Shown piece by piece: positions 40,339 to 55,993 of a DNA stretch of 64,000 nt; position 1 is the stretch's first letter; each line of letters begins with the position of its first letter. The notes beneath the pieces were generated by a model. It made no database searches. It was not told the origin of the DNA and worked only from the letters and a program-made list of their open reading frames with translations. A program made the position numbers and the translations under genes. Where the stretch lies: the NCBI GenBank assembly GCA_946886565.1, contig CAMPIX010000004.1, positions 1 through 64,000 on the forward strand, in the 5' to 3' direction. This DNA is from an uncultured Altererythrobacter sp. (GTDB lineage: Bacteria; Pseudomonadota; Alphaproteobacteria; Sphingomonadales; Sphingomonadaceae).

Positions 40339-40430
40339 TCCGTTCGCCCTGAGCTTGTCGAAGGGCCGTACTTCCTTTCACCCGCGCGCCCGAAGAAGGA
40401 CGGTGCTTCGACAAGCTCAGCACGAACGGA
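40339..40430. repeat. 92-bp inverted repeat between etfB and etfA (family 1)
   Basis: Arms 40339-40368 and 40401-40430 match at 26 of 30 positions; the key half is CTGAGCTTGTCGAAG. The 32-nt loop ends GAAGAAGGA, similar to the loops of the copies in ileS and before purK. It forms a stable hairpin in the etfB-etfA mRNA and may attenuate etfA or protect upstream RNA. Confidence 0.93.
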
Positions 40431-44953: not shown

Positions 44954-46246
44954 GTGACTCCCTATCCCTGGACAGATCTCCTCATCATCGCCGGGCTGAT
45001 TGTGCTCAACGGCGTCTTCGCCATGTCCGAACTGGCGATCGTTTCGGCCAAGACCTCGCGCCTGCAGCATATGGCGGACAAGGGGAGCAGCGCCGCGGCC
45101 ACAGCGATTGCGCTGGCGGCCGATCCGGGAAAGTTTCTTTCGACGGTTCAGATCGGGATTACCCTCGTCGGGATCGTCGCGGGCGCCTATTCCGGCGCGA
45201 GCCTCGGTGCGCCGACGGGCGAGCGGCTCGAAGCGCTCGGTCTGCCGCCTGCCTATGCGGACGAAGTCGGCTTCGTGGTGGTGATCGCGCTGACGACGTA
45301 CTTCAACCTGGTGATCGGCGAACTGGTGCCCAAGCAGGTGGCGTTGCGCGCCGCGGTGCCGATCTCACTCGTCATGGCGCGCCCCATGGCGCTCATCGCG
45401 CGGATCGCGGCGCCGCTCGTCTGGCTGCTGGACAACTCGTCGGGGCTGCTGATCCGCCTGCTCGGCGTTCGTTCGGGCGGGCATTCGAATGTCACCGCCG
45501 AGGAACTGCACATGATCTTCGCGGAAGCGACCCGTTCGGGCGTGATTGAGGTCGATCAACATCAGATTCTCGCGGGCGTGGTGCGGCTGGCGGACAAGCC
45601 CGTCCGCGATGTGATGACCCCGCGGACCGAACTCGACTGGGTCGATGCAGACGCCGATCAAGCCGCGATCCGCGGGGCGATCGAGGCGAGCCCGCATTCG
45701 CTCCTTCCCGTCGCGGAGGGGGCTTCCGACCGCGTGGTGGGCGTCGTCAAGGTGCGCGAAGTGCTCGCGCGAATGGTTGCGGGCGAACCGGTCGCCCTGC
45801 GCTCGATCATGAAGAAGGCCGAGGTCGTGCCCGACCAGCTCGACGCGATGGACGCGCTACGCGTGCTCCAGCAGTCCGAAGTCGCGATGGCGATGGTGCA
45901 CGACGAATACGGCCATCTCGACGGTATCGTGACCCCGGCGGACTTGCTGATCGCGATCGCGGGCCAGTTCGCGAGCGATCAGGATCAGGGCGAACAGCCC
46001 GGCATACTCGAGCGCGCCGACGGCTCGCTGCTGGTCTCGGGCGCGCTCGCGGCGGACGATCTCGCTGAGAGGCTGGATCTCGAATACCCCGACGACCGCG
46101 AATTCGCGACCGTGGCGGGCTATGTCCTGTCGGTGCTCAAGAACCTGCCGACCGAAGGCGAGAGCTTCACCGACCAGGGCTGGCGGTTCGAGGTCGTCGA
46201 CATGGACGGGCGCAAGATCGATAAATTGATCGTGAGCGAGGAGTAG
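44954..46246 (+). CDS. CNNM/CBS-domain HlyC/CorC family protein
   Basis: A 430-residue protein: an N-terminal CNNM membrane domain with three or four helices (LIIAGLIVLNGVFAMSELAIV, STVQIGITLVGIVAGAYSGA), a CBS pair (about 205-330; ADKPVRDVMTPRTELDWV and HDEYGHLDGIVTPADLL), and a CorC_HlyC domain at the C-terminus. Such proteins are thought to act in Mg/Co efflux or homeostasis. It begins with GTG at 44954, 166 nt from the divergent OmpA-like gene. A structured repeat element begins 40 nt after the stop. Confidence 0.93.
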   Translation: MTPYPWTDLLIIAGLIVLNGVFAMSELAIVSAKTSRLQHMADKGSSAAATAIALAADPGKFLSTVQIGITLVGIVAGAYSGASLGAPTGERLEALGLPPAYADEVGFVVVIALTTYFNLVIGELVPKQVALRAAVPISLVMARPMALIARIAAPLVWLLDNSSGLLIRLLGVRSGGHSNVTAEELHMIFAEATRSGVIEVDQHQILAGVVRLADKPVRDVMTPRTELDWVDADADQAAIRGAIEASPHSLLPVAEGASDRVVGVVKVREVLARMVAGEPVALRSIMKKAEVVPDQLDAMDALRVLQQSEVAMAMVHDEYGHLDGIVTPADLLIAIAGQFASDQDQGEQPGILERADGSLLVSGALAADDLAERLDLEYPDDREFATVAGYVLSVLKNLPTEGESFTDQGWRFEVVDMDGRKIDKLIVSEE

Positions 46247-46285
46247 TAAACACGCTCGCGGGCGTCGTGAGAGCGGCGCGGAGTC

Positions 46286-46400
46286 TTTGTTTTTCGCAGG
46301 CGCATCCGCGCCTGCGTCCTCGGGGCTGTTCCTCCCTTCGGTCGGGCCCCTGCGGGCGGCCGTTCGGCCTTGCGGTCCGCTGGTCGCGGACCGGAGCTTT
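46286..46400 (+). ncRNA. Structured repeat element, copy 1 (three covarying hairpins)
   Basis: Following TTTGTTTTT, helix I is CGCAGGCGC-ATCC-GCGCCTGCG (46295-46316), helix II is GGCCG-TT-CGGCC, and helix III is GGTCCGC-TGGTC-GCGGACC (46374-46392). Conserved single-stranded segments include GTCCTCGG, TCCCTTCG and CCTGCGGG. Two other copies in the window keep the loops but change the stems in paired fashion. Whether it acts as RNA or as a DNA repeat is not known. Confidence 0.7.
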
Positions 46401-46409
46401 CCAGACATC

Positions 46410-46524
46410 AATGGCCGGGAAGAGTTCGGGCTGCGACCAGCAGCCCGCAAGCGCGACCGCGCGCCCGCAGCGCCCGAAGGGAGCGAGGATATCGCGCGCG
46501 CGGATGCGCGTGCGGAAAACAAAT
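46410..46524 (-). ncRNA. Structured repeat element, copy 2 (minus strand)
   Basis: Read on the minus strand: TTTGTTTTC, then helix I CGCACGCGC-ATCC-GCGCGCGCG (46514-46493, one mismatch), helix II GCGCG-GT-CGCGC, and helix III GGGCTGC-TGGTC-GCAGCCC (46446-46428). Helices II and III differ from copy 1 by paired changes. It lies directly behind the terminator of the DUF3035 gene and faces copy 1, so the two form a large imperfect inverted repeat. Confidence 0.7.
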
Positions 46525-46555
46525 GAAAAGCAGTTATCCCGCAGGGATAACTGCT
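46525..46555 (-). terminator. Terminator overlapping the DUF3035 stop codon
   Basis: On the minus strand GCAGTTATCCC-TGC-GGGATAACTGC is a perfect 11-bp stem followed by TTTTCATTTGTTTT. The stem encodes the last residues (AVIPAG) and the TAA stop of the lipoprotein gene, so the terminator begins inside the coding sequence. Confidence 0.85.
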
Positions 46556-46950
46556 TGCGCGAACTGCCCGTCACCTTCCGGCGCCGCGACGATGTCGCGG
46601 GTCACGCGGCCTTTGGCCACCGTGTGCGTGGCCGGGTCGCCGACTTCGGTGCGAATGCCGGGATCGGCCACGCCCGCGCGGTCGAGCGCGCTGGTCTCGA
46701 CGCCGCTGCGCGGAGCCGGGCCGCCGAACAGCACTTCGAGCGCTTCCTCGCTCGCAGCGTCCTCGGTCGGGCGCGGAGCGCCGGGCGCGGGGGGCACGAG
46801 GCTGAAATCGGGCGGCACGACCAGCGGCGCCTGGCGCTGCACCGCGAACTCATCGGGGCGCTCGCGGCCGAGAATGCCGCCGCTGCTGCCGCAACCGGCG
46901 AGCATCGCGCTCGCGCCGGCGAGAAGGACGAGGGTGGTCGATTTACGCAT
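46534..46950 (-). CDS. DUF3035 family lipoprotein
   Basis: A 138-residue exported lipoprotein: the signal ends LAGC, and the mature part begins with Gly/Ser and then RERPDEFAVQRQAPLVVPPDF, the recognisable DUF3035 block, followed by a Pro/Ala-rich stretch and a C-terminal helix. The family occurs in alphaproteobacteria next to lspA and is assumed to act at the envelope; no function is assigned here. The ATG at 46950 is 2 nt after the lspA stop, so lspA and this gene are probably one transcript. It ends in its own terminator. Confidence 0.88.
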   Translation of the reverse strand: MRKSTTLVLLAGASAMLAGCGSSGGILGRERPDEFAVQRQAPLVVPPDFSLVPPAPGAPRPTEDAASEEALEVLFGGPAPRSGVETSALDRAGVADPGIRTEVGDPATHTVAKGRVTRDIVAAPEGDGQFAQAVIPAG

Positions 46951-46952
46951 CT

Positions 46953-47483
46953 TCAGCTCTCCGCGGCGCCGTGCGCCCGCTCGGTTTCGGGTGTTGCGTC
47001 CTTGTCGCGCACGAAGAACGCGCGGGCAAGGATTATCAGGACGCCGATGGTGATCGCGGCGTCGGCGATGTTGAAGATCAGGAACGGGCGGAACTCGCCG
47101 AAATGGAGATCGGCGTAGTCGATCACGTAGCCGTATTCGTAGCGGTCGCGGATATTGCCGAGCGCGCCGCCGAGGATCAGCGAGAGGCCCGCGATCTCGC
47201 CGAGCGCCTTCTCGCGCAGCATCCACACGGTGACGACGAGCGCGATCAGGCTCGTCACGCCCACCAGTATCCAGCGCATCTCCATCGAATCGGCCTGAAA
47301 CATGCCCAGCGAGATGCCGAAATTGTAGGTCATCCGAAAATCGAAGAACGGCAGCAGCTCGACCACCTCGCCGCGCTCCATCCCGAGCGTCTCGGTGACG
47401 TAGAACTTCATCGCCTGGTCGATCAGGAACAGCACGATCGCCGCGGCAAAGCCGATCAGGCGGTATTTCATGACCTTGCTCAT
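46953..47483 (-). CDS. lspA: Lipoprotein signal peptidase (signal peptidase II)
   Basis: A 176-residue aspartyl protease of the inner membrane with four helices. The conserved blocks are LFLIDQAMKFYV in the first helix, FRMTYNFGISLGMF, GGALGNIRDRYEYGYVIDY with the first catalytic Asp, and FLIFNIADAAITIG with the second. It removes signal peptides from lipidated prolipoproteins, of which at least seven candidates are encoded in this window. The start at 47483 overlaps the ileS stop by ATGA, the classic ileS-lspA arrangement. Confidence 0.96.
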   Translation of the reverse strand: MSKVMKYRLIGFAAAIVLFLIDQAMKFYVTETLGMERGEVVELLPFFDFRMTYNFGISLGMFQADSMEMRWILVGVTSLIALVVTVWMLREKALGEIAGLSLILGGALGNIRDRYEYGYVIDYADLHFGEFRPFLIFNIADAAITIGVLIILARAFFVRDKDATPETERAHGAAES

Positions 47484-50461
47484 GCGGCGTCCAGCTCCGA
47501 AATCACATCGTCGCAGCGGGCGCAGAGCGCGCCGTCCTCGGCTACCTCGGGCAGGAGGCGCCAGCAGCGGCCGCATTTGTGGTCTTGGGTGCGCGTCACG
47601 GTCACTTCGCCGCCCTGGCCGCGCGCGACTGACGCGACGATGAACAGTTCGGCGAGATCGGCGTCGGAAAAGCCCTCGGGCACCGCGGCGGCGGGCACCG
47701 CGACTTCGGCCTCGAGTCCCGAGCGCACGACCTTCTCGCGCCGCAGCGGCTCGATCGCCTCCATCACCCGCTCGCGCAAAGTGCGCAAGGCGTCGAAGCG
47801 CGCGGCGATTTCCGGGTTCACCCATTCGCCCGGCAGCGGGTGCAGCTCCTGCAAGTGGACGCTGCCGCGCTCCGGGAAGCGCGTGGTCCAGGCCTCTTCC
47901 GCCGTGAACACCAGCACCGGCGCGGCGTAGCGCACGAGCGCGTGGAACAGCACGTCGAGCACGGTGCGGTAGGCGCGGCGGCGCAGGTCGCCTTCGCCGT
48001 CGCAGTAGAGGCTGTCCTTGCGCACATCGAAGAAAAACGCCGAGAGGTCCTCGTTCGCGAAATCGACCAGCTCGCGGGTGTACTCGTTGAAGTCGAAATC
48101 GGCGATCGCCTGCCGCAGCGTCGCGTCGAGCGCGTGGAGCTGACTCAGCACGTAGCGTTCGAGCTCGGGCATCTCGGCCGGATCGACGCCTTCGCTCTCG
48201 TAATCGAACCCGTCGAGCGCGCCGAGCAGGTAGCGGAAGGTGTTGCGCAATCGGCGATACTGGTCGCCCACGCCCTTGAGGATCTCGTCCCCGATCCGGT
48301 GGTCCTCGGTGAAGTCGACCGACAGCGCCCACAGGCGGATGATGTCCGCCCCGTACTGCTCCATCACCTTGACCGGATCGACCGTGTTGCCGAGCGACTT
48401 CGACATCTTCTTGCCGTCGCTCGCCATGGTGAAGCCGTGGGTCAGCACCGCGTCGTAGGGCGCGCGCCCGCGCGTGGCGCAGCTTTCGAGCAGCGAGGAC
48501 TGGAACCAGCCGCGATGCTGGTCGGACCCTTCGAGATAGAGATCGGCGGGCCACTTGAGCTCGGGCCAGCGCCCGCTTTCGAGCACGAACGCATGGGTGC
48601 AGCCCGAATCGAACCACACGTCGAGGATGTCGGTGATCCGCTCGTAGTCGGCGGGGTCGTAGTCGGGGCCGAGGATTTCGCCCGCCGCCTCGTCGGTCCA
48701 GGCATCGACGCCCTGCTCGCGCACCGCGGCGACGATGCGTTCGTTAACCGCGGGGTCGACCAGATATTCGCCGCTTTCGCGGTGGACGAACAGCGTGATC
48801 GGCACCCCCCACGCGCGCTGGCGGCTGAGCACCCAGTCGGGCCGCCCCTCGACCATCGCCCCGATCCGGTTGCGCCCCTTGGCGGGCACGAAGCGCACAC
48901 GATCGATCTCGGCGAGGGCGGTCGACCTCAAAGTCCGTTCGCCCTGAGCTTGTCGAAGGGCCGCACTTTTTTCGGACGCAGCGCTGGAAGAAGAGGACGG
49001 TGCTTCGACAGGCTCAGCACGAACGGAATTTGGGGTTTCCGCCAAATTCCGATCCATCGGCACGAACCACTGCGGCGTGCAGCGGTAGATGACCTTGGCC
49101 TTGGAACGCCACGAATGCGGGTAGGAGTGCTGGTAGTCCGCGCTCGCAGACAGCAGCGCGCCGGCATCGCGCAAGTCCGAGCAGATCGGCCCCTCGGGCG
49201 CGTTGAACCTGGGGTTGATGACCGACATCCGCCGCTCGTCGCCGCCGCCGAGCCACAGCCAGTCGTCGCGATAGCGCCCGTCGGCCTCGACCGCGAACTT
49301 CGGCGTCAGGCCGTGGGCCTTGCACAGCTCGAAATCGTCCTCGCCGTGGTCGGGCGACATGTGGACCAGCCCGGTGCCGCTGTCGGTGGTGACGAAGTCG
49401 CCCGGCAGGAACGGTCGCGGCGCGGCGTAGAACCCGCCGAGATGGTGCATCGGGTGGTGGGCGACGGTTCCGGCGAGGTCGGAGCCTTTGCCGCGCCAGA
49501 TTGGCTTTAGGCTGTCCGCGGCAAAAGCCGACCGTGCTCGAAAAGCATCGAGCAAACTACCCGCGACGAGTATCACTCCGCTCCAAATCGTTTCAAGATC
49601 ATCTGGCGTCTGTGGAGGATACTTGCCACGCAGCATGTGTTGACGACCGGCAATGGCAACATACTCAATCTCCGGCCCATAGGCCAAGGCCTGGTTCACC
49701 GGGATCGTCCACGGCGTGGTCGTCCAGATCACTGCGTGCGCGCCGACCAGTTCGGGAATCGGGCTCTCGACGATCTCGAACGCCACGTCGATCTGGGTCG
49801 AGGTGATGTCCTCGTACTCGACCTCGGCCTCGGCCAGCGCGGTCTTTTCGACCGGGCTCCACATCACCGGCTTGGCGCCGCGATACAGGTTGCCCGCCTC
49901 GGCGAACTTGAGCAGCTCGGCAACGATCGTCGCTTCCGCCGCGAAGTCCATCGTCAGGTAGGGCTTGTCCCAGTCGCCGTTGATGCCGAGCCGCTTCAGC
50001 TGCTCGCGCTGCACGTCGACCCAGTGCTGCGCGTAGGCGCGGCATTCGGCGCGGAATTCGGCCGCGGGGACCTCGTCCTTGTTCAGCTTCTTCTTGCGGT
50101 ACTGCTCCTCGACCTTCCACTCGATCGGCAGCCCGTGGCAGTCCCACCCGGGCACGTAGGGCGCGTCCTTGCCCAGCAGCGTCTGCGTGCGCACGACCAT
50201 GTCCTTGAGCACGTGGTTCAGCGCGTGGCCGATGTGCATATCGCCGTTGGCATACGGCGGCCCGTCGTGGAGCACGAACTTTTCACGGCCCGCGCGCTCC
50301 TCGCGCAGCTTCGCGTAGAGCCCGTCGGATTCCCATTGCGCGAGAATGCCCGGCTCCTTCTGCGGCAGGCCGGCCTTCATCGGAAACTCGGTCTTCGGCA
50401 GGAAGACCGTGTCCCGGTAATCTCGCTGGGGGGGCGTTGGCGGATTTTGGGCGTCGTTCAT
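47480..50461 (-). CDS. ileS: Isoleucyl-tRNA synthetase with in-frame palindromic insert
   Basis: A 993-residue class I synthetase that charges tRNA-Ile. The HIGH motif is in PYANGDMHIGHALNHVLKDM, KMSKS in ASDGKKMSKSLGNTV, and the C-terminal zinc site in CGRCWRLLPEVAEDGALCARC-like sequence (C-G-R-C and C-A-R-C pairs). After WFVPMDRNLAE comes SVRAEPVEAPSSSSSAASEK and ALRQAQGERT, encoded by a 94-bp palindromic repeat, then LAEIDRVRFVP resumes. A 180-nt stretch of the editing domain (49501-49680) has lower GC, about 54 percent by hand count. ATG at 50461. Overlaps lspA. Confidence 0.97.
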   Translation of the reverse strand: MNDAQNPPTPPQRDYRDTVFLPKTEFPMKAGLPQKEPGILAQWESDGLYAKLREERAGREKFVLHDGPPYANGDMHIGHALNHVLKDMVVRTQTLLGKDAPYVPGWDCHGLPIEWKVEEQYRKKKLNKDEVPAAEFRAECRAYAQHWVDVQREQLKRLGINGDWDKPYLTMDFAAEATIVAELLKFAEAGNLYRGAKPVMWSPVEKTALAEAEVEYEDITSTQIDVAFEIVESPIPELVGAHAVIWTTTPWTIPVNQALAYGPEIEYVAIAGRQHMLRGKYPPQTPDDLETIWSGVILVAGSLLDAFRARSAFAADSLKPIWRGKGSDLAGTVAHHPMHHLGGFYAAPRPFLPGDFVTTDSGTGLVHMSPDHGEDDFELCKAHGLTPKFAVEADGRYRDDWLWLGGGDERRMSVINPRFNAPEGPICSDLRDAGALLSASADYQHSYPHSWRSKAKVIYRCTPQWFVPMDRNLAETPNSVRAEPVEAPSSSSSAASEKSAALRQAQGERTLRSTALAEIDRVRFVPAKGRNRIGAMVEGRPDWVLSRQRAWGVPITLFVHRESGEYLVDPAVNERIVAAVREQGVDAWTDEAAGEILGPDYDPADYERITDILDVWFDSGCTHAFVLESGRWPELKWPADLYLEGSDQHRGWFQSSLLESCATRGRAPYDAVLTHGFTMASDGKKMSKSLGNTVDPVKVMEQYGADIIRLWALSVDFTEDHRIGDEILKGVGDQYRRLRNTFRYLLGALDGFDYESEGVDPAEMPELERYVLSQLHALDATLRQAIADFDFNEYTRELVDFANEDLSAFFFDVRKDSLYCDGEGDLRRRAYRTVLDVLFHALVRYAAPVLVFTAEEAWTTRFPERGSVHLQELHPLPGEWVNPEIAARFDALRTLRERVMEAIEPLRREKVVRSGLEAEVAVPAAAVPEGFSDADLAELFIVASVARGQGGEVTVTRTQDHKCGRCWRLLPEVAEDGALCARCDDVISELDAA
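48934..49027. repeat. 94-bp inverted repeat inside ileS (family 1)
   Basis: Arms 48934-48963 and 48998-49027 match at 25 of 30 positions and share the left arm exactly with the copy at 40339. The repeat keeps the ileS frame open and adds about 31 residues, read as SVRAEPVEAP...LRQAQGERT, in the linker after the WFVPMD strand. Confidence 0.95.
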
Positions 50462-50522
50462 GGAACCAGCGCCGCTAGAGGAAAGCGGGCGTGTAGGAAA
50501 GTGAATAGGTTTCGCGCAGCGC

Positions 50523-51458
50523 CTATCCAACGCTCGCGAGCAACCGCCGCGCCTCGGTGCAGTCCGAATCGATCTGCGCCACCAGCGAATCGAGCGAATC
50601 GAACGTCGCCTCGGGCCGCAGGAAGTGGTGGAACGCGACCTCGATCTCCTGCCCGTAGAGATCGCCGGCGAAGTCGAAGAAATGCGGTTCGAGCAATTCC
50701 CGGGGCGGCTCGAACTGCGGGCGCACGCCGATGTTCGCCGCGCCCTGCAGCGCCTGCCCCGTCGCCAGTACCCGCCCGGTGACGGCATAGACCCCGAACT
50801 TGGGGCGAAGATAGCTCTCGATCGCGAGGTTCGCGGTCGGATAGCCGATTGCGCGCCCGCGCTTGTCGCCATGCTCGACCACGCCGCGAATCGCGAACGG
50901 GCGGGTGAGGAGCCGCGCGGCCTCCTGCGGATCGCCCTCGCGCAGCGCCTCGCGCACGCGGCTGGACGATACCGGTTCGCCGCCATCCATCACCGCCGGC
51001 ACCGCGCGCGCCGCGATGCCTGCCTCGCGGCCGAGCTCCTCGAGCCGTGCGCGATTCCCCGCGCGGCCCTTGCCGAAGGTGAAGTCCTCCCCCGTCACCA
51101 CGCCCACGACGCCGAGCCGCCGCCCGAGCAAGTCGTGCACGAAATCCTCGGCGCTGGTGCCCGCCAGTTCGGCGTCGAAGTGGAACACCAGCATCGCGGT
51201 CGCCCCGGCGGCGAGGTAGAGCTCCTGCCGCTGCTCGAGCGTGGTAAGGCGGAAGGGCGGCACCTCGGGCTTGAACAGGCGCACCGGGTGCGGGTCGAAG
51301 GTGGCGATGATCGCGGGGCGGCCCTCTGCGCGCGCCCACTCGATCGCCTCGCGCGCGACCGCCTGGTGCCCCTTGTGAAAGCCGTCGAAATTGCCGAGCG
51401 CGATCACTGCGCCGCGCAGGCTCTCGGGCATGGCCTCGCGATGATCGAGCCACCTCAT
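50523..51458 (-). CDS. ribF: Bifunctional riboflavin kinase / FAD synthetase
   Basis: A 311-residue enzyme. The N-terminal nucleotidyltransferase half has GAVIALGNFDGFHKGHQAV and FVHDLLGRRLGVVGVVTGEDF with GKGRAGN; the C-terminal flavokinase half has GDKRGRAIGYPTANLAI, FGVYAVTGRV and AANIGVRPQF. It converts riboflavin to FMN and then FAD. The start overlaps the M19 gene stop by ATGA and the ileS gene follows after 61 nt, so the run folA - M19 - ribF - ileS - lspA is likely one operon. Confidence 0.96.
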   Translation of the reverse strand: MRWLDHREAMPESLRGAVIALGNFDGFHKGHQAVAREAIEWARAEGRPAIIATFDPHPVRLFKPEVPPFRLTTLEQRQELYLAAGATAMLVFHFDAELAGTSAEDFVHDLLGRRLGVVGVVTGEDFTFGKGRAGNRARLEELGREAGIAARAVPAVMDGGEPVSSSRVREALREGDPQEAARLLTRPFAIRGVVEHGDKRGRAIGYPTANLAIESYLRPKFGVYAVTGRVLATGQALQGAANIGVRPQFEPPRELLEPHFFDFAGDLYGQEIEVAFHHFLRPEATFDSLDSLVAQIDSDCTEARRLLASVG

Positions 51459-52636
51459 TTGGCTGCGTCCATCGGCGCTATCCCCGCGCGCAGCACGCGC
51501 AGCGCATTGCCGCCCATCGCCGCGCGCACCTCGTCGTGGGTGAAGCCTTCGTCGAGCAGCGCCTGCGTCATCTGTACGAGCTGGCTGGCGTCGAAGCGCA
51601 CCGTGGTCGCCCCGTCGTAGTCGCTGCCGAGCGCGACGTGCTGTATCCCGACCAGATCGCGCACGTGCTTCATCGCGCGTGCCGCGTCACGCGGGCTCGT
51701 GCCGCACACCGCCGCGTCCCAGAAGCCGATCCCGATCACCCCGCCGGTGCGCGCAACGCCGCGGATTTCGGCGTCGGAGAGGTTGCGGTTGACCTCGCAC
51801 GTCGCCTGCACCCCGCCGTGGCTCGAGACCACCGGGCGGCGCGCCATCGCAAGGATGTCGGCGACGCAGGCGTGGCTGCAATGCGCCACGTCGACGATCA
51901 TCCCGAGCGCCTCCATCCGCCGGATCGCCGCGCGGCCCTTTTCGGTCAGTCCGCCTTTCTCGAGCCCGTGCATCGAGCCCGCGAGATCGTTGTCGAAGAA
52001 ATGCGTGAGGCCCGCCATGCGGAAGCCCGCGGCGTGGAGCCGGTCGAGGTTGGCAAGGTCGCCTTCGAGGTTCTGCAGACCCTCGATGCTGAGCAGCCCG
52101 CCCACGGGCACCGGCTTGCCATCGCGCCGGGCGAGCAACGCCGCGATGTCCTGCGGCTGCGCGACCTTGACCAGCCGACCGTCCGACTGCGCCACCGCCC
52201 GATCGAGCTTCTCGCCGTGGTACAGCGAGCGTTCGAGCAGCGAGGTCCAGGTGCGGATCGGCTGGAGCTGCGCGATCGCCAGCGCCGTGATGTTGTCTGT
52301 TTCCGCGCTGTTGGCCTCGTAGTTCTGGCCCTTGGGTGTCTTGGTCACGCTGGAGAACACCTTGAGCGCGACGTTGCCGTCGATCATGCGCGGTACATCC
52401 TCGTGCCCACGCTCGGCGCGCTCGATCAGGTCGCGGTCCCACAGCAGCGTGTCCGAATGCAGATCGACGATCGTCAGCGTTGCGTGCAGCGCTCGCGCCT
52501 CCTCGGACACCGGAATCAGCGGCTTGCCGTCGATCTTGTTCATGCTCCGCTCGACCATTCCCGGCGCGAGCGCGAAGAACGCGATCGCGGCGAGCACGAT
52601 CAGCGCCAGCGCGCCCCAGGCGAGCTTGCGCTTCAT
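51455..52636 (-). CDS. Membrane dipeptidase (peptidase M19 family)
   Basis: A 393-residue protein with one N-terminal helix (about 5-23) that anchors it or serves as signal. All M19 metal ligands are visible: DLHSDTLLW (His-x-Asp), GLLSIEGLQN (Glu), VDVAHCSHACV and PVVSSHGGVQ (His), and LGSDYDGAT (Asp). It would hydrolyse dipeptides at a di-zinc centre in the periplasm, fitting with the peptide transporter elsewhere in the window. The ATG at 52636 overlaps the folA stop (ATGA). Confidence 0.92.
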   Translation of the reverse strand: MKRKLAWGALALIVLAAIAFFALAPGMVERSMNKIDGKPLIPVSEEARALHATLTIVDLHSDTLLWDRDLIERAERGHEDVPRMIDGNVALKVFSSVTKTPKGQNYEANSAETDNITALAIAQLQPIRTWTSLLERSLYHGEKLDRAVAQSDGRLVKVAQPQDIAALLARRDGKPVPVGGLLSIEGLQNLEGDLANLDRLHAAGFRMAGLTHFFDNDLAGSMHGLEKGGLTEKGRAAIRRMEALGMIVDVAHCSHACVADILAMARRPVVSSHGGVQATCEVNRNLSDAEIRGVARTGGVIGIGFWDAAVCGTSPRDAARAMKHVRDLVGIQHVALGSDYDGATTVRFDASQLVQMTQALLDEGFTHDEVRAAMGGNALRVLRAGIAPMDAAK

Positions 52637-53121
52637 GCCGCGCGCCGCCGCAGGGTGACGAAATCGAACGCGGGCAGATCGCCCTGCGCCGGATGCGCCT
52701 CGCGCGACGCCTCTTCCCACTCGGCCCCGAGCGGCGGCATCAGCACGTCGCCTCCGTATTCGGCGTGGATTTCGGTCAATTCAACCCGGCTCGACAATGG
52801 CAGGAACACGTCGAAGATCGCCGCCCCGCCGATCACCGCGACTTCGCCTTCACCCGCCAGCGCGAGCGCCTCCTCGGGCGTGCGCGCCACTTCGGCGCCT
52901 TCGCGCTCCCACCGATCGCGACGGGTGAGGACGATATGGCGGCGGCCGGGCAGCAGCCCGGGCAGGCTCTCGAAGGTCTTGCGGCCCATGATCATCGGCC
53001 GGTTCATCGTCAGCGCCTTGAAGCGCTTGAGGTCGGCCGGGATGTGCCACGGCAGCGTGCCCTCGTTGCCGATCACGCCGTTGGCGGCGCGGGCGTAGAT
53101 GCAGAACAGCTCCTGCGCCAT
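52633..53121 (-). CDS. folA: Dihydrofolate reductase
   Basis: A 162-residue enzyme: IYARAANGVIGNEGTLPWHI with the Trp of the active-site loop, PADLKRFKALTMNRPMIMGR, GRKTFESLPG and VAVIGGAAIFDVFLP are the standard blocks. It reduces dihydrofolate with NADPH. The start at 53121 lies 8 nt after the purK stop. No thymidylate synthase gene is next to it, in contrast to many bacteria. Confidence 0.95.
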   Translation of the reverse strand: MAQELFCIYARAANGVIGNEGTLPWHIPADLKRFKALTMNRPMIMGRKTFESLPGLLPGRRHIVLTRRDRWEREGAEVARTPEEALALAGEGEVAVIGGAAIFDVFLPLSSRVELTEIHAEYGGDVLMPPLGAEWEEASREAHPAQGDLPAFDFVTLRRRAA

Positions 53122-53129
53122 CGGGGCCG

Positions 53130-54191
53130 CTAGCCGCGCTCGATCCGCGTGACGTGCCCCATCTTGCGCCCTTCGCGCGCCTGGCGCTTGCCGTAGAGGT
53201 GCAGATGCGCGCCGGGTTGGGCGAGGCATTCGTGCGCAGTGAGCGCCTCCTCGCCGATCAGGTTCGACATGACGATCTGTCCGGCGATGGTCGCGGTGTT
53301 GCCCAGCGGCAGCCCGCAGATCGCGCGCACGTGGTTCTCGAACTGGCTCGTCGCCGCGCCCTCGATTGTCCAGTGGCCCGAATTGTGGACCCGGGGGGCC
53401 ATCTCGTTGAACACCGGGCCTTCATTGGTGGCGAAGAACTCGCAGGTCAGCACTCCGACATAGCCGAGCGCCTCGGCGACTTGGGCGGCGAGGTCGCGCG
53501 CCGGGCCGACCTGCGCGGCGATCGCCTCGCCCGCCGGCAGCGCCGAGGTCGCAAGGATGCCGCCGACATGCGTGTTCTCGGCACTGTCCCAGAACCGCAC
53601 CTCGCCGTCGCGCCCGCGCACGAGGATGACCGAGAACTCGCTCGTGAACTCGACGAAGCCCTCGTAGATCGTCGATGCGTCGGGCAGGCGGATCGCGTCG
53701 GCGTCGCGCGCCGTCTGGATGCGCCACTGGCCCTTGCCGTCGTAGCCGTCGCGGCGGGTCTTGAGGATGCCCGGCGCTCCGATCCGGTCGACCGCTGCGG
53801 CCAGTTCCTCGGCGGTATCGACCGGCGCGTAGGCAGCGGGCGTTCCGCCGAGCCCTTCGACGAAGCGTTTTTCCTTGAGCCGGTCCTGCGCGGTCTCGAG
53901 CGCGCGCGGATGCGGCGCGAGCAGCGGCTCGATCGCCGTCAGCGGCCCGACCGGCACGTTCTCGAACTCCCACGTGACGACGTCGCACGCGGCGGCGAAA
54001 TCGCTCAGCGCCGCGGCGTCGGTCCACGGTGCGCAAGTGAATTCGGCGCTGACTTCGGCGGCGACGCTTTCGCGGCCCGGGGCATAGACATGGCAGCGAT
54101 AGCCGAGCTGCGCCGCGGCCATCGCGATCATCCGCCCGAGCTGACCGCCGCCGAGAATGCCGATTGTCGCGCCTGGAATTATCACCCTCAC
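53130..54191 (-). CDS. purK: N5-carboxyaminoimidazole ribonucleotide synthase
   Basis: A 353-residue ATP-grasp enzyme: IGILGGGQLGRMIAMAAAQL at the start, VTWEFENVPVGPLTAIEP, ILKTRRDGYDGKGQW with the ATP-grasp loop, EFTSEFSVILVRGRDG and EMAPRVHNSGHWTIEGA. It carboxylates aminoimidazole ribonucleotide with ATP and bicarbonate, feeding PurE. Start uncertain: GTG codons at 54191 and 54185 are both in frame; the second gives the usual length, and neither has an ideal ribosome-binding site because a palindromic repeat ends 4 nt upstream. The pairing with purE is standard. Confidence 0.95.
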   Translation of the reverse strand: MRVIIPGATIGILGGGQLGRMIAMAAAQLGYRCHVYAPGRESVAAEVSAEFTCAPWTDAAALSDFAAACDVVTWEFENVPVGPLTAIEPLLAPHPRALETAQDRLKEKRFVEGLGGTPAAYAPVDTAEELAAAVDRIGAPGILKTRRDGYDGKGQWRIQTARDADAIRLPDASTIYEGFVEFTSEFSVILVRGRDGEVRFWDSAENTHVGGILATSALPAGEAIAAQVGPARDLAAQVAEALGYVGVLTCEFFATNEGPVFNEMAPRVHNSGHWTIEGAATSQFENHVRAICGLPLGNTATIAGQIVMSNLIGEEALTAHECLAQPGAHLHLYGKRQAREGRKMGHVTRIERG

Positions 54192-54195
54192 CTAC

Positions 54196-54286
54196 CCCGT
54201 TCGGGCTGAGCTTGTCGAAGCCCCGCTTTGCTTCGGAGTTGCGCTAGAAGAAAATGCGGCCCTTCGACAAGCTCAGGGCGAACGGA
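54196..54286. repeat. 91-bp inverted repeat between purE and purK (family 1)
   Basis: Arms at about 54196-54225 and 54256-54286 share the CTGAGCTTGTCGAAG core with the copies in ileS and between etfB and etfA, and the loop contains GCGCTAGAAGAAAA. It occupies nearly all of the 109-nt gap between purE and purK. Confidence 0.93.
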
Positions 54287-54300
54287 TTTGGGGAGGCGGC

Positions 54301-54792
54301 TCAATCTTCGGGCCGTTCCTTGACTGCCGCGGTGCGCGCGGCGCGCCAGGTTCGCAGACGCTCGGACAGCTGCGGGTCGCCGAGCGCGAGGATCGCGGCG
54401 GCGAGCAGGCCGGCGTTGGTCGCCCCGGCCTTGCCGATCGCGAGCGTGCCGGTGGGCACCCCGGCGGGCATCTGCACGATCGAGAGCAGGCTGTCCTGCC
54501 CACGCAGCGCCTTCGATTCGACCGGTACGCCGAGCACCGGCAGATGGGTCAGCGCGCTGAGCATCCCCGGCAGATGCGCCGCGCCGCCGGCGCCGGCGAT
54601 GATGACCTGAAAACCTTCCTCCGCTGCGTGCTTGCCGAATTCGTACATCCGATCGGGCGTGCGGTGCGCCGAGACGATCCGCGCCTCGTATTCCACGCCG
54701 AGCTCGTCGAGTACTTCGGCGGTGCAGCGCATCGTCGGCCAGTCGGACTGGCTGCCCATGACGATTGCGACTTTGGCTCCCCCGTCGCCCAT
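54301..54792 (-). CDS. purE: 5-(carboxyamino)imidazole ribonucleotide mutase
   Basis: A 163-residue protein with the PurE hallmark [20 protein letters not shown], then [15 protein letters not shown] with the catalytic His, and [20 protein letters not shown]. The GAT-like C-terminus ([16 protein letters not shown]) completes the octamer interface. It is a class I PurE acting with PurK in purine synthesis. It lies between gpmA (1 nt away on the upstream side) and purK. Confidence 0.96.
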
Positions 54793-54793
54793 C

Positions 54794-55480
54794 TCAGCGG
54801 TCCTTCAGATAGTGGCGCTCGCCCGGTTTCATCCCGGCGTCGAACTCGTAGACGATCGGCTGGCCGGTGGGAATCTCGAGCCCGGTGATGTCCTCGTCCG
54901 AAATGCCCGACAGGTGCTTGACCAGCGCGCGCAAGCTGTTGCCGTGCGCGGACACGATCACAGTCTCGCCGGTCGCGAGCACCGGCAGGATTTCGCCTTC
55001 CCAATAGGGCAGCACACGCTCGATCGTGAGCTTGAGGCTCTCGGTGCCGGGCACGTCGATCCCGGCGTAGCGCGGATCGGCGGAGAGATCGTAGTCGCTC
55101 CCGGCGACCATTTCGGGCGGCGGCACGTCGAAGCTGCGGCGCCAGATATGGACCTGCTCGTCGCCGTGCCGGTCGCGGGTCTCCTGCTTGTTCAGCCCGG
55201 TGAGCCCGCCGTAGTGCCGCTCGTTGAGCCGCCAGTCCTTGACCTCGGGGATCCACAGCCGCCCGCAGGCCTCGAGCGCGAGGTGCAGCGTCTTGATCGC
55301 GCGGGTCTGGAGCGAGGTGAAGGCCCGCGTCGGCAGCACGCCCTTTGCCGCGAGCAGTTCGCCGCCCGCGATCGCCTCGGCCACGCCCTGCTCGGTCAGG
55401 TCGACGTCCCACCAGCCGGTAAAGCGGTTCTCCAGGTTCCACTGGCTCTGGCCGTGGCGGACGAGGATCAGGGTGGGCAA
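54794..55480 (-). CDS. gpmA: 2,3-bisphosphoglycerate-dependent phosphoglycerate mutase
   Basis: A 228-residue glycolytic enzyme. [20 protein letters not shown] has the phosphorylated His, [15 protein letters not shown] the substrate loop, and [19 protein letters not shown] the second His; the family length fits. The start is TTG at 55480, preceded by AAGGAG at a good spacing; no ATG lies near the first strand. The cofactor-dependent form is shown by the long insertion after the active-site loop. Confidence 0.94.
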
Positions 55481-55514
55481 GCGGCGCTCCTTGTTCGTTC
55501 GGGAGCGAGTGCGG

Positions 55515-55676
55515 TTAGCTTTTCGCGTCCGGCTTGGAAACCCCGCTGTCGCGCGATTCGCCGGCCCCGTTGCTCGCCATCTCGCGCGATTGGGCTTTCC
55601 GGCGGCGCAGGTTCTCGCGCAGCCGGGCCGCCAGCCGCTCCTCGCGCGACATTTTCTTGTCGGTGCCTTCACCCAT
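55515..55676 (-). CDS. Small highly charged protein, unknown function
   Basis: A 53-residue frame beginning [20 protein letters not shown], with the basic helix [14 protein letters not shown] and a polar C-terminus. I recall short proteins of this type near gpmA in sphingomonads as conserved hypotheticals; the [19 protein letters not shown] helix is the conserved part. It starts 87 nt from the tRNA-Thr gene on the other strand and lies 34 nt upstream of gpmA, with which it may share a transcript. Confidence 0.65.
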
Positions 55677-55766
55677 GCGCAACGCCTTGCCCTTATAGCG
55701 CCGAACGCTCAAGCTCGGCTTGACTTTCCCCGGGGGTGCGCCAATAGCGCGCCCGCTTCTTGCAGC

Positions 55767-55841
55767 GCTGCTGTAGCTCAGTGGTAGAGCGCACCCTTGG
55801 TAAGGGTGAGGTCGGGAGTTCAATCCTCCCCAGCAGCACCA
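55767..55841 (+). tRNA. tRNA-Thr, anticodon GGU
   Basis: A 75-nt cloverleaf: acceptor GCTGCTG/CAGCAGC, D-arm GCTCAGTGGTAGAGC, anticodon stem CACCC/GGGTG with loop TTGGTAA (anticodon GGT), and T-arm GGGAGTTCAATCCTCCC; discriminator A and encoded CCA end at 55841. It reads ACC and ACU threonine codons. A terminator follows immediately. Confidence 0.97.
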
Positions 55842-55870
55842 TTCTTGCCGCAGGCAAGAATGGTTTTTTT
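55839..55870 (+). terminator. Terminator of tRNA-Thr, starting in the CCA end
   Basis: CCATTCTTGCC-GCA-GGCAAGAATGG is a perfect 11-bp stem whose 5' arm begins with the encoded CCA of the tRNA; seven T follow. Transcription would stop at about 55870, just before the third copy of the structured repeat. Confidence 0.9.
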
Positions 55871-55993
55871 GCTTTTCGAACGCGCATCCGCGCGTTCGTC
55901 CTCGGCGCTAATCCCTTCGCTTCGCTACGGGGCGCCTGCGGGCGGCCGGTCGGCCTTGCAGTCCGTGGTCGCGGACCGGGCCTTTCCAAGCCA
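55871..55993 (+). ncRNA. Structured repeat element, copy 3 (after tRNA-Thr)
   Basis: After GCTTTT, helix I is CGAACGCGC-ATCC-GCGCGTTCG (55877-55898), helix II GGCCG-GT-CGGCC, and helix III GTCCG-TGGTCG-CGGAC (55961-55976). Compared with copy 1, helix I carries two paired replacements (C-G to A-T and G-C to C-G) while the ATCC loop is unchanged. It shares GTCCTCGG, TCCCTTCG and CCTGCGGGCGGCC with copy 1. Confidence 0.7.

Follow-up and report, generated by a model that had tools for sequence, protein, structure and literature searches.

What is the structured repeat that occurs three times, each time downstream of a gene, in the DNA studied here? The DNA is a stretch of 64,000 nucleotides (nt) from an uncultured Altererythrobacter sp. 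(contig CAMPIX010000004.1, positions 1 to 64,000), hereafter called the window. A first-pass annotation of its sequence had offered two readings of the repeat, either a conserved RNA structure (a 3' untranslated region (UTR) or processed small RNA) or a mobile unit resembling repetitive extragenic palindromes (REPs). Our analysis favours the second. The element probably belongs to a family of composite palindromic DNA repeats of Erythrobacteraceae, comparable to REPs and bacterial interspersed mosaic elements (BIMEs), and is probably a mosaic rather than a dedicated RNA. The mobile reading gained support from the dispersal of the copies, from their identity at different loci, from inverted pairs, from placement at 3' ends, from nested inserts and from empty orthologous sites.

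Comparison of the window copies with relatives defined a unit of about 100 nt, consisting of a T/G-rich leader, the hairpins P1, P2 and P3, the word TTGC and the hairpin P4. Copy 1 lies on the plus strand (46,295 to 46,392) behind the leader GGAGTCTTTGTTTTT (46,280 to 46,294), and similar leaders recur at copies of other genomes. Its P1 (46,295 to 46,316) reads CGCAGGCGC(ATCC)GCGCCTGCG, its P2 (46,317 to 46,356) has the base TCC-U-C...G-C-GGG with a C.U mismatch and a bulged U, its P3 (46,358 to 46,369) is GGCC(GTTC)GGCC and its P4 (46,374 to 46,392) is GGTCCGC(TGGTC)GCGGACC. Copy 2 is on the minus strand (46,428 to 46,514), and the parts read off its sequence are P1 at 46,493-46,514, P2 at 46,464-46,489, P3 at 46,451-46,462 and P4 at 46,428-46,446. 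Copy 3 is again on the plus strand (55,877 to 55,976), with P1 at 55,877-55,898, P2 at 55,899-55,942, P3 at 55,944-55,955 and P4 at 55,961-55,976. From P1 to P4 the three copies span 87-101 nt. Copies 1 and 2 form a tail-to-tail inverted pair, their tails being linked by an imperfect palindrome seen by eye (46,393 to 46,427).

A covariance model built from 16 copies, including window copies 1 and 3, was run on the window with cmsearch. It found copy 1 at 91.3 bits (E 4.7e-14), copy 2, which is absent from the model, at 66.7 bits (E 7.3e-10) and copy 3 at 85.2 bits (E 5.3e-13, match end 55,977), while the next-best match reached only E 0.076. The core CTGCGGGCGNNCGNTCGNNCTTGC, searched with up to three mismatches, matched the window only at these three copies, each without mismatch; 0.39 matches were expected, and three were reached in 1 of 100 shuffles. 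The copies thus stand where the first-pass annotation had placed them, with the stems and loops it quoted. Its set of helices was incomplete: it overlooked P2 (TCCTCG...CTGCGGG), and the words TCCCTTCG and CCTGCGGG, taken to be single-stranded, fall largely within that extra helix. Its helix II (GGCCG/CGGCC) would leave a loop of 2 nt; the stem exists, at four base pairs with a GTTC or GGTC tetraloop. Its helix I, our P1, is a paired stem, with one A.C mismatch in copy 2.

Across a larger collection of 262 copies, P1 was not parsable in 56, leaving 206, in which the 10 nt before P1 were 49% T and 8% A. The P1 loop was CTCC in 80, ATCC in 60 and GTCC in 12 of 152 parses; these parses, like those of the 206 copies and those behind the P1/P3 comparison below, accepted only loops ending in TCC, and other P1 loops exist, e.g. 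at L303, L307 and L318 (L with a number denotes a locus, G with a number a genome). The base of P2 is TCC-U-C/G-C-GGG, with the C.U mismatch and the bulged U constant, and the loop of P3 is [GAT][GT]TC. P1 also has a longer form (CCTCAAGCGCCGG...TTGGCTATCC), which occurs in genomes as well as viral contigs, and a shorter one found in viral contigs.

How widely is the element distributed? A whole-genome search with the covariance model scored just 150 of up to 9,266 candidates per genome, and copies were therefore counted with exact patterns, which miss degenerate ones. The first-pass annotation had made its case depend on further copies in related genomes, and these exist: the exact core was present in 35 of 50 genomes of Erythrobacteraceae and relatives (50 of the genomes of 80 loci carrying a CNNM-family gene), with 322 copies summed and 0 to 34 per genome, and a reversed pattern used as control gave none. 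The core was found in 11 of 118 genomes of an order-level sample, where the reversed pattern matched once, in 6 of 385 genomes at class level, where the reversed pattern gave none, and in 5 of 249 genomes at phylum level, all five also within the order sample. A looser pattern, applied to 81 sources (the window plus the 80 CNNM loci), gave 47 matches in 30 of them; one of the matches, at L138, looks coding by eye. Within a single genome, copies from separate loci reached 93.9% identity over 114 nt. As a separate observation, Pelagerythrobacter marinus (G001) carries four tandem copies with a period of about 155 nt (C15:61808-62357, L143 and neighbours). No match to plasmids or isolated phages was obtained with blastn, a weak tool for repeats so short and variable.

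The core pattern also matched 60 stretches of viral contigs in IMG/VR. A phage element, which these matches had brought to mind, is not claimed after examination of six stretches. Phage or gene-transfer-agent families were present in L038, L049 and L001 (TIGR02217 or TIGR02218 above cut-off; a megatron match in L038 was below cut-off); L053 carries terminase, portal, capsid and tail genes in the gene order of L038, and L054 phage portal and major head genes. The single protein tested in L010 gave an SppA-like match below cut-off only. In L001, L038, L049 and other viral contigs, copies lie between structural genes of gene-transfer-agent-like clusters, often reversed and just before the next start.

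We evaluated the genomic environment of 191 chromosomal copies with tRNA genes and the predictions of a codon-usage caller made for this analysis. The element is multicopy, palindromic and intergenic: only 3 of the 191 lie within a predicted gene, and with these and 10 copies at locus edges omitted, 178 remained. Their neighbours, relative to the element, were convergent in 88 cases, co-directional in the sense orientation in 53, co-directional in reverse in 32 and divergent in 5. P1 pointed towards the 3' end of a gene or tRNA in 141 of the 178 copies, against a mean of 83 and a maximum of 103 in 2,000 random draws from the gaps of the same loci. The start of P1 was -5 to 16 nt from that 3' end in 74 copies (random mean 7.2, maximum 16), often 2-16 nt past the stop codon, and P1 was as near a gene start in just 1 of 37. 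Tail-to-tail inverted pairs comprised 28 of the 178 copies, with cores 53-188 nt apart. Among 93 stop codons located -20 to 30 nt from P1, those of viral loci being counted too, 54 were TGA, 21 TAG and 18 TAA. The last codon of carriers at the DUF3035 and aldehyde dehydrogenase sites was often altered, as judged by eye, and followed by TGATTT or similar, as if the element supplied the stop codon there.

Orthologous sites allowed the hairpins to be followed individually, and both occupied and empty ones were seen between species downstream of two genes, the peptide deformylase gene def (PF01327) and an aldehyde dehydrogenase gene. For def, 58 genomes gave a match and the best 30 were taken as loci; for the aldehyde dehydrogenase, the best 30 of 34 matches of at least 84% identity were used. 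In the genus of Erythrobacter oryzae the element lies below def in 27 of 30 loci (25 parsed, 2 by eye) and is missing from L305, L312 and L327; nine of the 30 have the exact core, the other carriers showing by eye a variant or interrupted P3. By eye, the def site was occupied in 1 of 30 loci in the genus of Qipengyuania flava (G397) and in 0 of 7 in the genus of P. marinus, and the aldehyde dehydrogenase site in about 6 of 30, three of them with the exact core.

The P1 arm at def changes type in blocks. Among the 25 parsed loci, GTGCCCGC was found in 6, GCTCGCCC in 6 and GAAGGCGC in 5, in addition to seven other types. On the def gene tree the P1 type changed at least 16 times among 27 loci, a count that depends on a weakly resolved tree (14 of 24 inner branches open, 3 starred) and on types assigned by hand for L315, L323 and L329. 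We compared the eight arm bases in 72 pairs of loci with def at least 88% identical. The arms differed at no base in 16 pairs, at one in none, at two in 9, at three in 3, at four in 42 and at five in 2, so that 58 of the 72 pairs differed at either none or four; among all def-locus pairs, a difference of one base occurred in 9 of 351. The sister loci L306 and L307 (support 99/94) differ in P1 and are nearly identical in P2, and L319 and L316 are likewise close in P2. In the orthologous pair L233 and L255, the upstream flank, P1 and P4 are common, and P2 and P3 differ. Since P1 usually differs at several pairs at once at an orthologous site, much of the covariation looks like hairpin replacement rather than slow paired substitution. 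Recurrent P1 arms are found at several loci within one genome, so donors could exist, although none was traced.

Hairpins also carry inserts. The P2 of the def copy in L318 contains about 37 nt that are lacking in L306, L314, L319 and L316, including the leader-like sequence GTCTTTGTT. At the tip of its P3 there is an insert of about 39 nt relative to L306, L314 and L316; the P3 insert is found in L319 and L330 too, and a related one in L065, L083 and L100. The hairpin core of the P2 insert, GCTTCGCTACTTGAG, occurs at six places in the loci examined: L318, the P2 of L258 but not that of its orthologue L278, and, by eye, apparently outside the element at L223, L024, L007 and L086. The outer stems of these hairpins vary by paired changes, as judged by eye. 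A third type of insert is present in P2 of L229, L242 and L284.

Do the paired changes require a functional RNA? In an alignment of 16 diverse copies, hand-picked for well-formed hairpins, 95.9% of cells were paired and both sides had changed in 17 of 29 pairs. None of 500 shuffles scored as high on four of five measures, and 6 of 500 did on the number of pair types. The search patterns left two P3 pairs unconstrained, and in 262 copies, which are related and not independent, 513 of the 524 cells at these pairs were Watson-Crick. P1 at the def site was aligned for 23 of 27 copies, with L315 and L329 unparsed owing to a P1 indel and L323 and L326 omitted as shifted. Pairing reached 99%, and 48 cells were double-changed; on three measures none of 500 shuffles did as well, and on the counts of pairs and of types 37 and 75 of 500 did. 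The paired stem changes that the first-pass annotation had noticed thus exceed what chance would give, and covariation was strong in the larger alignments, for the 16 copies and for the def site alike. Folding energy was less telling (z -3.0, -2.1 and -0.8 for the window copies).

The principal rival explanation is a functional structured RNA in the 3' UTR, such as a stabiliser, a processing or termination element or the origin of a small RNA derived from the 3' UTR; selection on the RNA would then maintain it. The sense orientation of copies and their nearness to stop codons, the retention below def, the pairing and double changes of P1 at that site, the near-constant loops and the constant mismatch and bulge of P2 all speak for it. 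We nevertheless consider it unlikely, as P1 usually switches several pairs together instead of pair by pair, and as P3 has no excess of G.U (3 G.T against 7 A.C in 760 cells). For P1 over mixed copies the comparison of G.U with A.C is blurred by the mixture of types and includes one recurrent A.C variant. Moreover, two of the window copies sit behind terminator-like hairpins: that of the DUF3035 gene (46,528 to 46,556, minus strand, 13 pairs) lies directly before copy 2, and that of tRNA-Thr (55,838 to 55,864, plus strand, 12 pairs and a T run) directly before copy 3. Among 61 intergenic copies in viral-contig loci, 26 are in sense and 35 in reverse orientation to the genes, and P1 of 30 of these 35 is at most 40 nt from the start of the next gene, which argues against a strict 3'-UTR role. 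Rfam at its curated gathering thresholds matched only two tRNAs in the window and only tRNA in nine related loci; below threshold there were 9 matches (best E 0.0007), e.g. to microRNA precursors, a small nucleolar RNA and an internal ribosome entry site. The inference of RNA structure from compensatory changes was thus weakened by the block changes of P1, the lack of a G.U excess in P3 and the two terminator-like hairpins. If hairpins are swapped as ready-made blocks, paired changes alone do not prove a functional RNA.

Several observations weigh against a mobile mosaic. In five genomes, 42 of 85 copies are at sites shared with another of the five, both flanking genes being alike, and 12 of 15 copies examined in G419 are at sites shared between species; with so many shared sites, turnover is slow at many loci. 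Copies are mostly in sense orientation to genes, and their retention below def in 27 of 30 loci points to use and not to drift. In P1 at this site, 4 cells are G.U and 0 are A.C. Small paired steps of one or two pairs were seen too (L214/L285, L252/L283), and the types of P1 and P3 are partly linked (mutual information 0.56 against 0.32 when shuffled, 2 of 2,000 as high; 83 copies). This linkage is what shared descent would give, the types being partly reshuffled and not fully independent. No movement was directly observed, and no target duplication or donor was defined, no systematic search for duplications having been made. The profile of RAYT-type transposases, PF01797, was found in 6 of the 50 genomes (G002, G390, G391, G392, G428 and G434), among them G390 with 15 copies and G434 with 10, and was not found in G411, G412, G416, G418 and G419, which have 19-34 copies each. 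In 24 of the 50 genomes, reverse transcriptase (PF00078) was found in 6 and IS110 (PF02371) in 7; neither was found in G411, G416 or G418, each of which has 30-34 copies. The absence of these profiles rules out RAYT, reverse transcriptase and IS110 as resident movers in the latter three genomes, other transposases not having been searched.

We still prefer a composite palindromic DNA repeat. The copies would be mobile DNA of a non-autonomous kind, spreading in the form of single strands that fold during replication or repair, and T-rich sequence at gene ends would be favoured for insertion, unless copies survive only there. The constant linkers (the leader, TCCTCG, CTGCGGG and TTGC) may be where recombination or template switching exchanges hairpin modules among copies. 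The copying of whole hairpins would then account for much of the covariation, some selection acting on the loops and on the constant base of P2, and any effect on the 3' end of host transcripts may be a by-product. Persistence at def leaves room for function, and the history is quite possibly mixed, the element being mobile in origin and put to use at some genes afterwards. REPs at most 15 nt downstream of an open reading frame (ORF) have been linked to translational control in the accessible text on RepRanger (PMC12306157), which offers one way in which the def copy could act.

A further step can be proposed only tentatively, and may well prove wrong. The repeat could be a self-assembling mosaic, in which palindromes with a common GTCTTTGTT-like leader insert into the tips and stems of others and swap hairpins as cassettes across copies, through some activity of Erythrobacteraceae that acts on single strands or hairpins. 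Covariation of stems, commonly read as the mark of a functional RNA, would in that case arise from hairpin exchange at the DNA level.

Could the element instead act at the level of the chromosome, as a DNA site insulating convergent genes or bound by a nucleoid protein, by gyrase or by a methylase? Copies do lie between convergent features in 88 of 178 cases, against 104 of 473 gaps of at least 110 nt in the same loci. In addition, GANTC shows an enrichment, in the form of the leader's GAGTC, at 11-14 nt upstream of P1 (23 sites in 206 copies, about 1 being expected from background density). GANTC is the CcrM/CerM methylation site according to the part of PMC2229807 available to us. This explanation appears very improbable: sequence-specific binding to the duplex would be expected to fix half-sites and not merely symmetry, the positioned GANTC is present in only about one copy in nine, and copy number ranges from 0 to 34 across related genomes. 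From 60 nt before to 29 nt after the core start, GANTC was below background (9 in 260 copies). A chance likeness of hairpins or an alignment artefact has next to no probability left, for although GC-rich DNA folds readily and 41 of 200 shuffles fold as well as copy 3 (z -0.81), it is refuted by the 322 exact cores against 0 for the reversed pattern and by the Watson-Crick count at the open P3 pairs.

Is the repeat already known? Judged by titles and the beginnings of abstracts, no publication was recognised as describing it; the literature covered was mostly without subscription papers, so its absence from print is unproven. RIME elements of rhizobia are alphaproteobacterial intergenic mosaic palindromes and are likened here by name. 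With REPs in the wide sense the element has in common that it is intergenic, palindromic and multicopy, and it does not have their length of 20-40 nt. The CGTC- and GTAG-tagged REPs of Di Nocera and others (2013, PMC3733652, consulted, like the other sources cited, in its accessible parts) each consist of one 20-40 bp hairpin carrying a GTAG or CGTC tag that is unpaired, unlike the four hairpins and roughly 100 nt of our element. The likeness to them, as far as that text describes them, lies in intergenic palindromes near ORF 3' ends, mostly under 20 bp away, and between convergent or unidirectional genes, in inverted dimers, in units inserted in other palindromes and in a possible supply of stop codons. 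In the genomes plotted in PMC3733652, most convergent REPs were separated by under 20 bp from each of the two ORF 3' ends, and the termini of GTAG REPs are described as often providing stop codons. CGTC REPs are mostly alphaproteobacterial and, like our element, have no known transposase, none dedicated to them being named in the accessible sections of that paper. Other hallmarks of the tagged REPs, tested on P1 only, were lacking from most or all of 206 copies: the GTAG REP head GT(A/G)G preceded P1 in 3, the CGTC REP tag (CGTC/TGTC/CCTC) was present in 5, A/T at the first two stem positions in 26 and a CCA tail in 0. The cognate RAYT of GTAG REPs and REPINs was likewise not found in the high-copy genomes. 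By eye, a second palindrome, CCCCGGACTTGATCCGGGG, was noted downstream of the def element in many of the loci L302-L331, often after CGTCA; it resembles CGTC-tagged REPs.

BIMEs and REPINs have, in what is accessible of PMC2817692 and PMC3116915, a mosaic or doublet architecture with inverted units, as here, and REP doublets are described there as the replicative unit. The present family differs in that each unit has several hairpins, that tail-to-tail pairs make up only 28 of 178 copies and that RAYT was not found in the five genomes with at least 19 copies. The CIR repeats of Caulobacter and Brucella are described in PMC2229807, insofar as its text was available, as two arms and a linker of about 110 bp with GANTC at the terminal loop. 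By description alone they resemble our element in being alphaproteobacterial, intergenic, of about 110 bp and folded from arms and a linker; they differ in having two arms and not four hairpins, and GANTC is here enriched only in the leader. Identity with CIR, prompted by the leader GAGTC, was ruled out by that position, 11-14 nt before P1 and not at a terminal loop.

With this family, the palindromic repeats of alphaproteobacteria gain a large member built of several hairpins, and def provides an orthologous site where hairpins change type in blocks. If the proposed mosaic is correct, covariation tests by themselves can mislead wherever hairpins are exchanged among repeats, and culturable strains make it possible to test how mosaic palindromes originate. 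The family also has a bearing on the movement of alphaproteobacterial REPs; the available part of PMC3733652 reports no transposase dedicated to them.

As to the surroundings in the window, the flanking genes named by the first-pass annotation were borne out, each upstream of its copy and in the same direction. Copy 1 follows a CNNM-family gene (44,954 to 46,246, plus strand; PF01595, 157 bits), the product of which is 87% identical to that of P. marinus; judging from this protein, the source of the window is a Pelagerythrobacter-like bacterium. Copy 2 follows a DUF3035 gene (46,534 to 46,950 in the gene model, minus strand; PF11233, 61 bits), and copy 3 follows tRNA-Thr(ggt) (55,767 to 55,841, plus strand). 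Another inverted repeat has three copies in the window, at about 40,345-40,430, 48,940-49,030 and 54,195-54,290, and reads CCGTTCG..CTGAGC.TGTCGAAG ... CTTCGACAAGCTCAG..CGAACGG. For E. lithoralis (spelling of the source), the accessible text of PMC3733652 mentions REPs that lie within tRNA synthetase genes. The copy at 48,940-49,030 lies in frame within a class I tRNA synthetase gene (47,480-50,461, minus strand; PF00133, with a weak match to the IleRS zinc finger).

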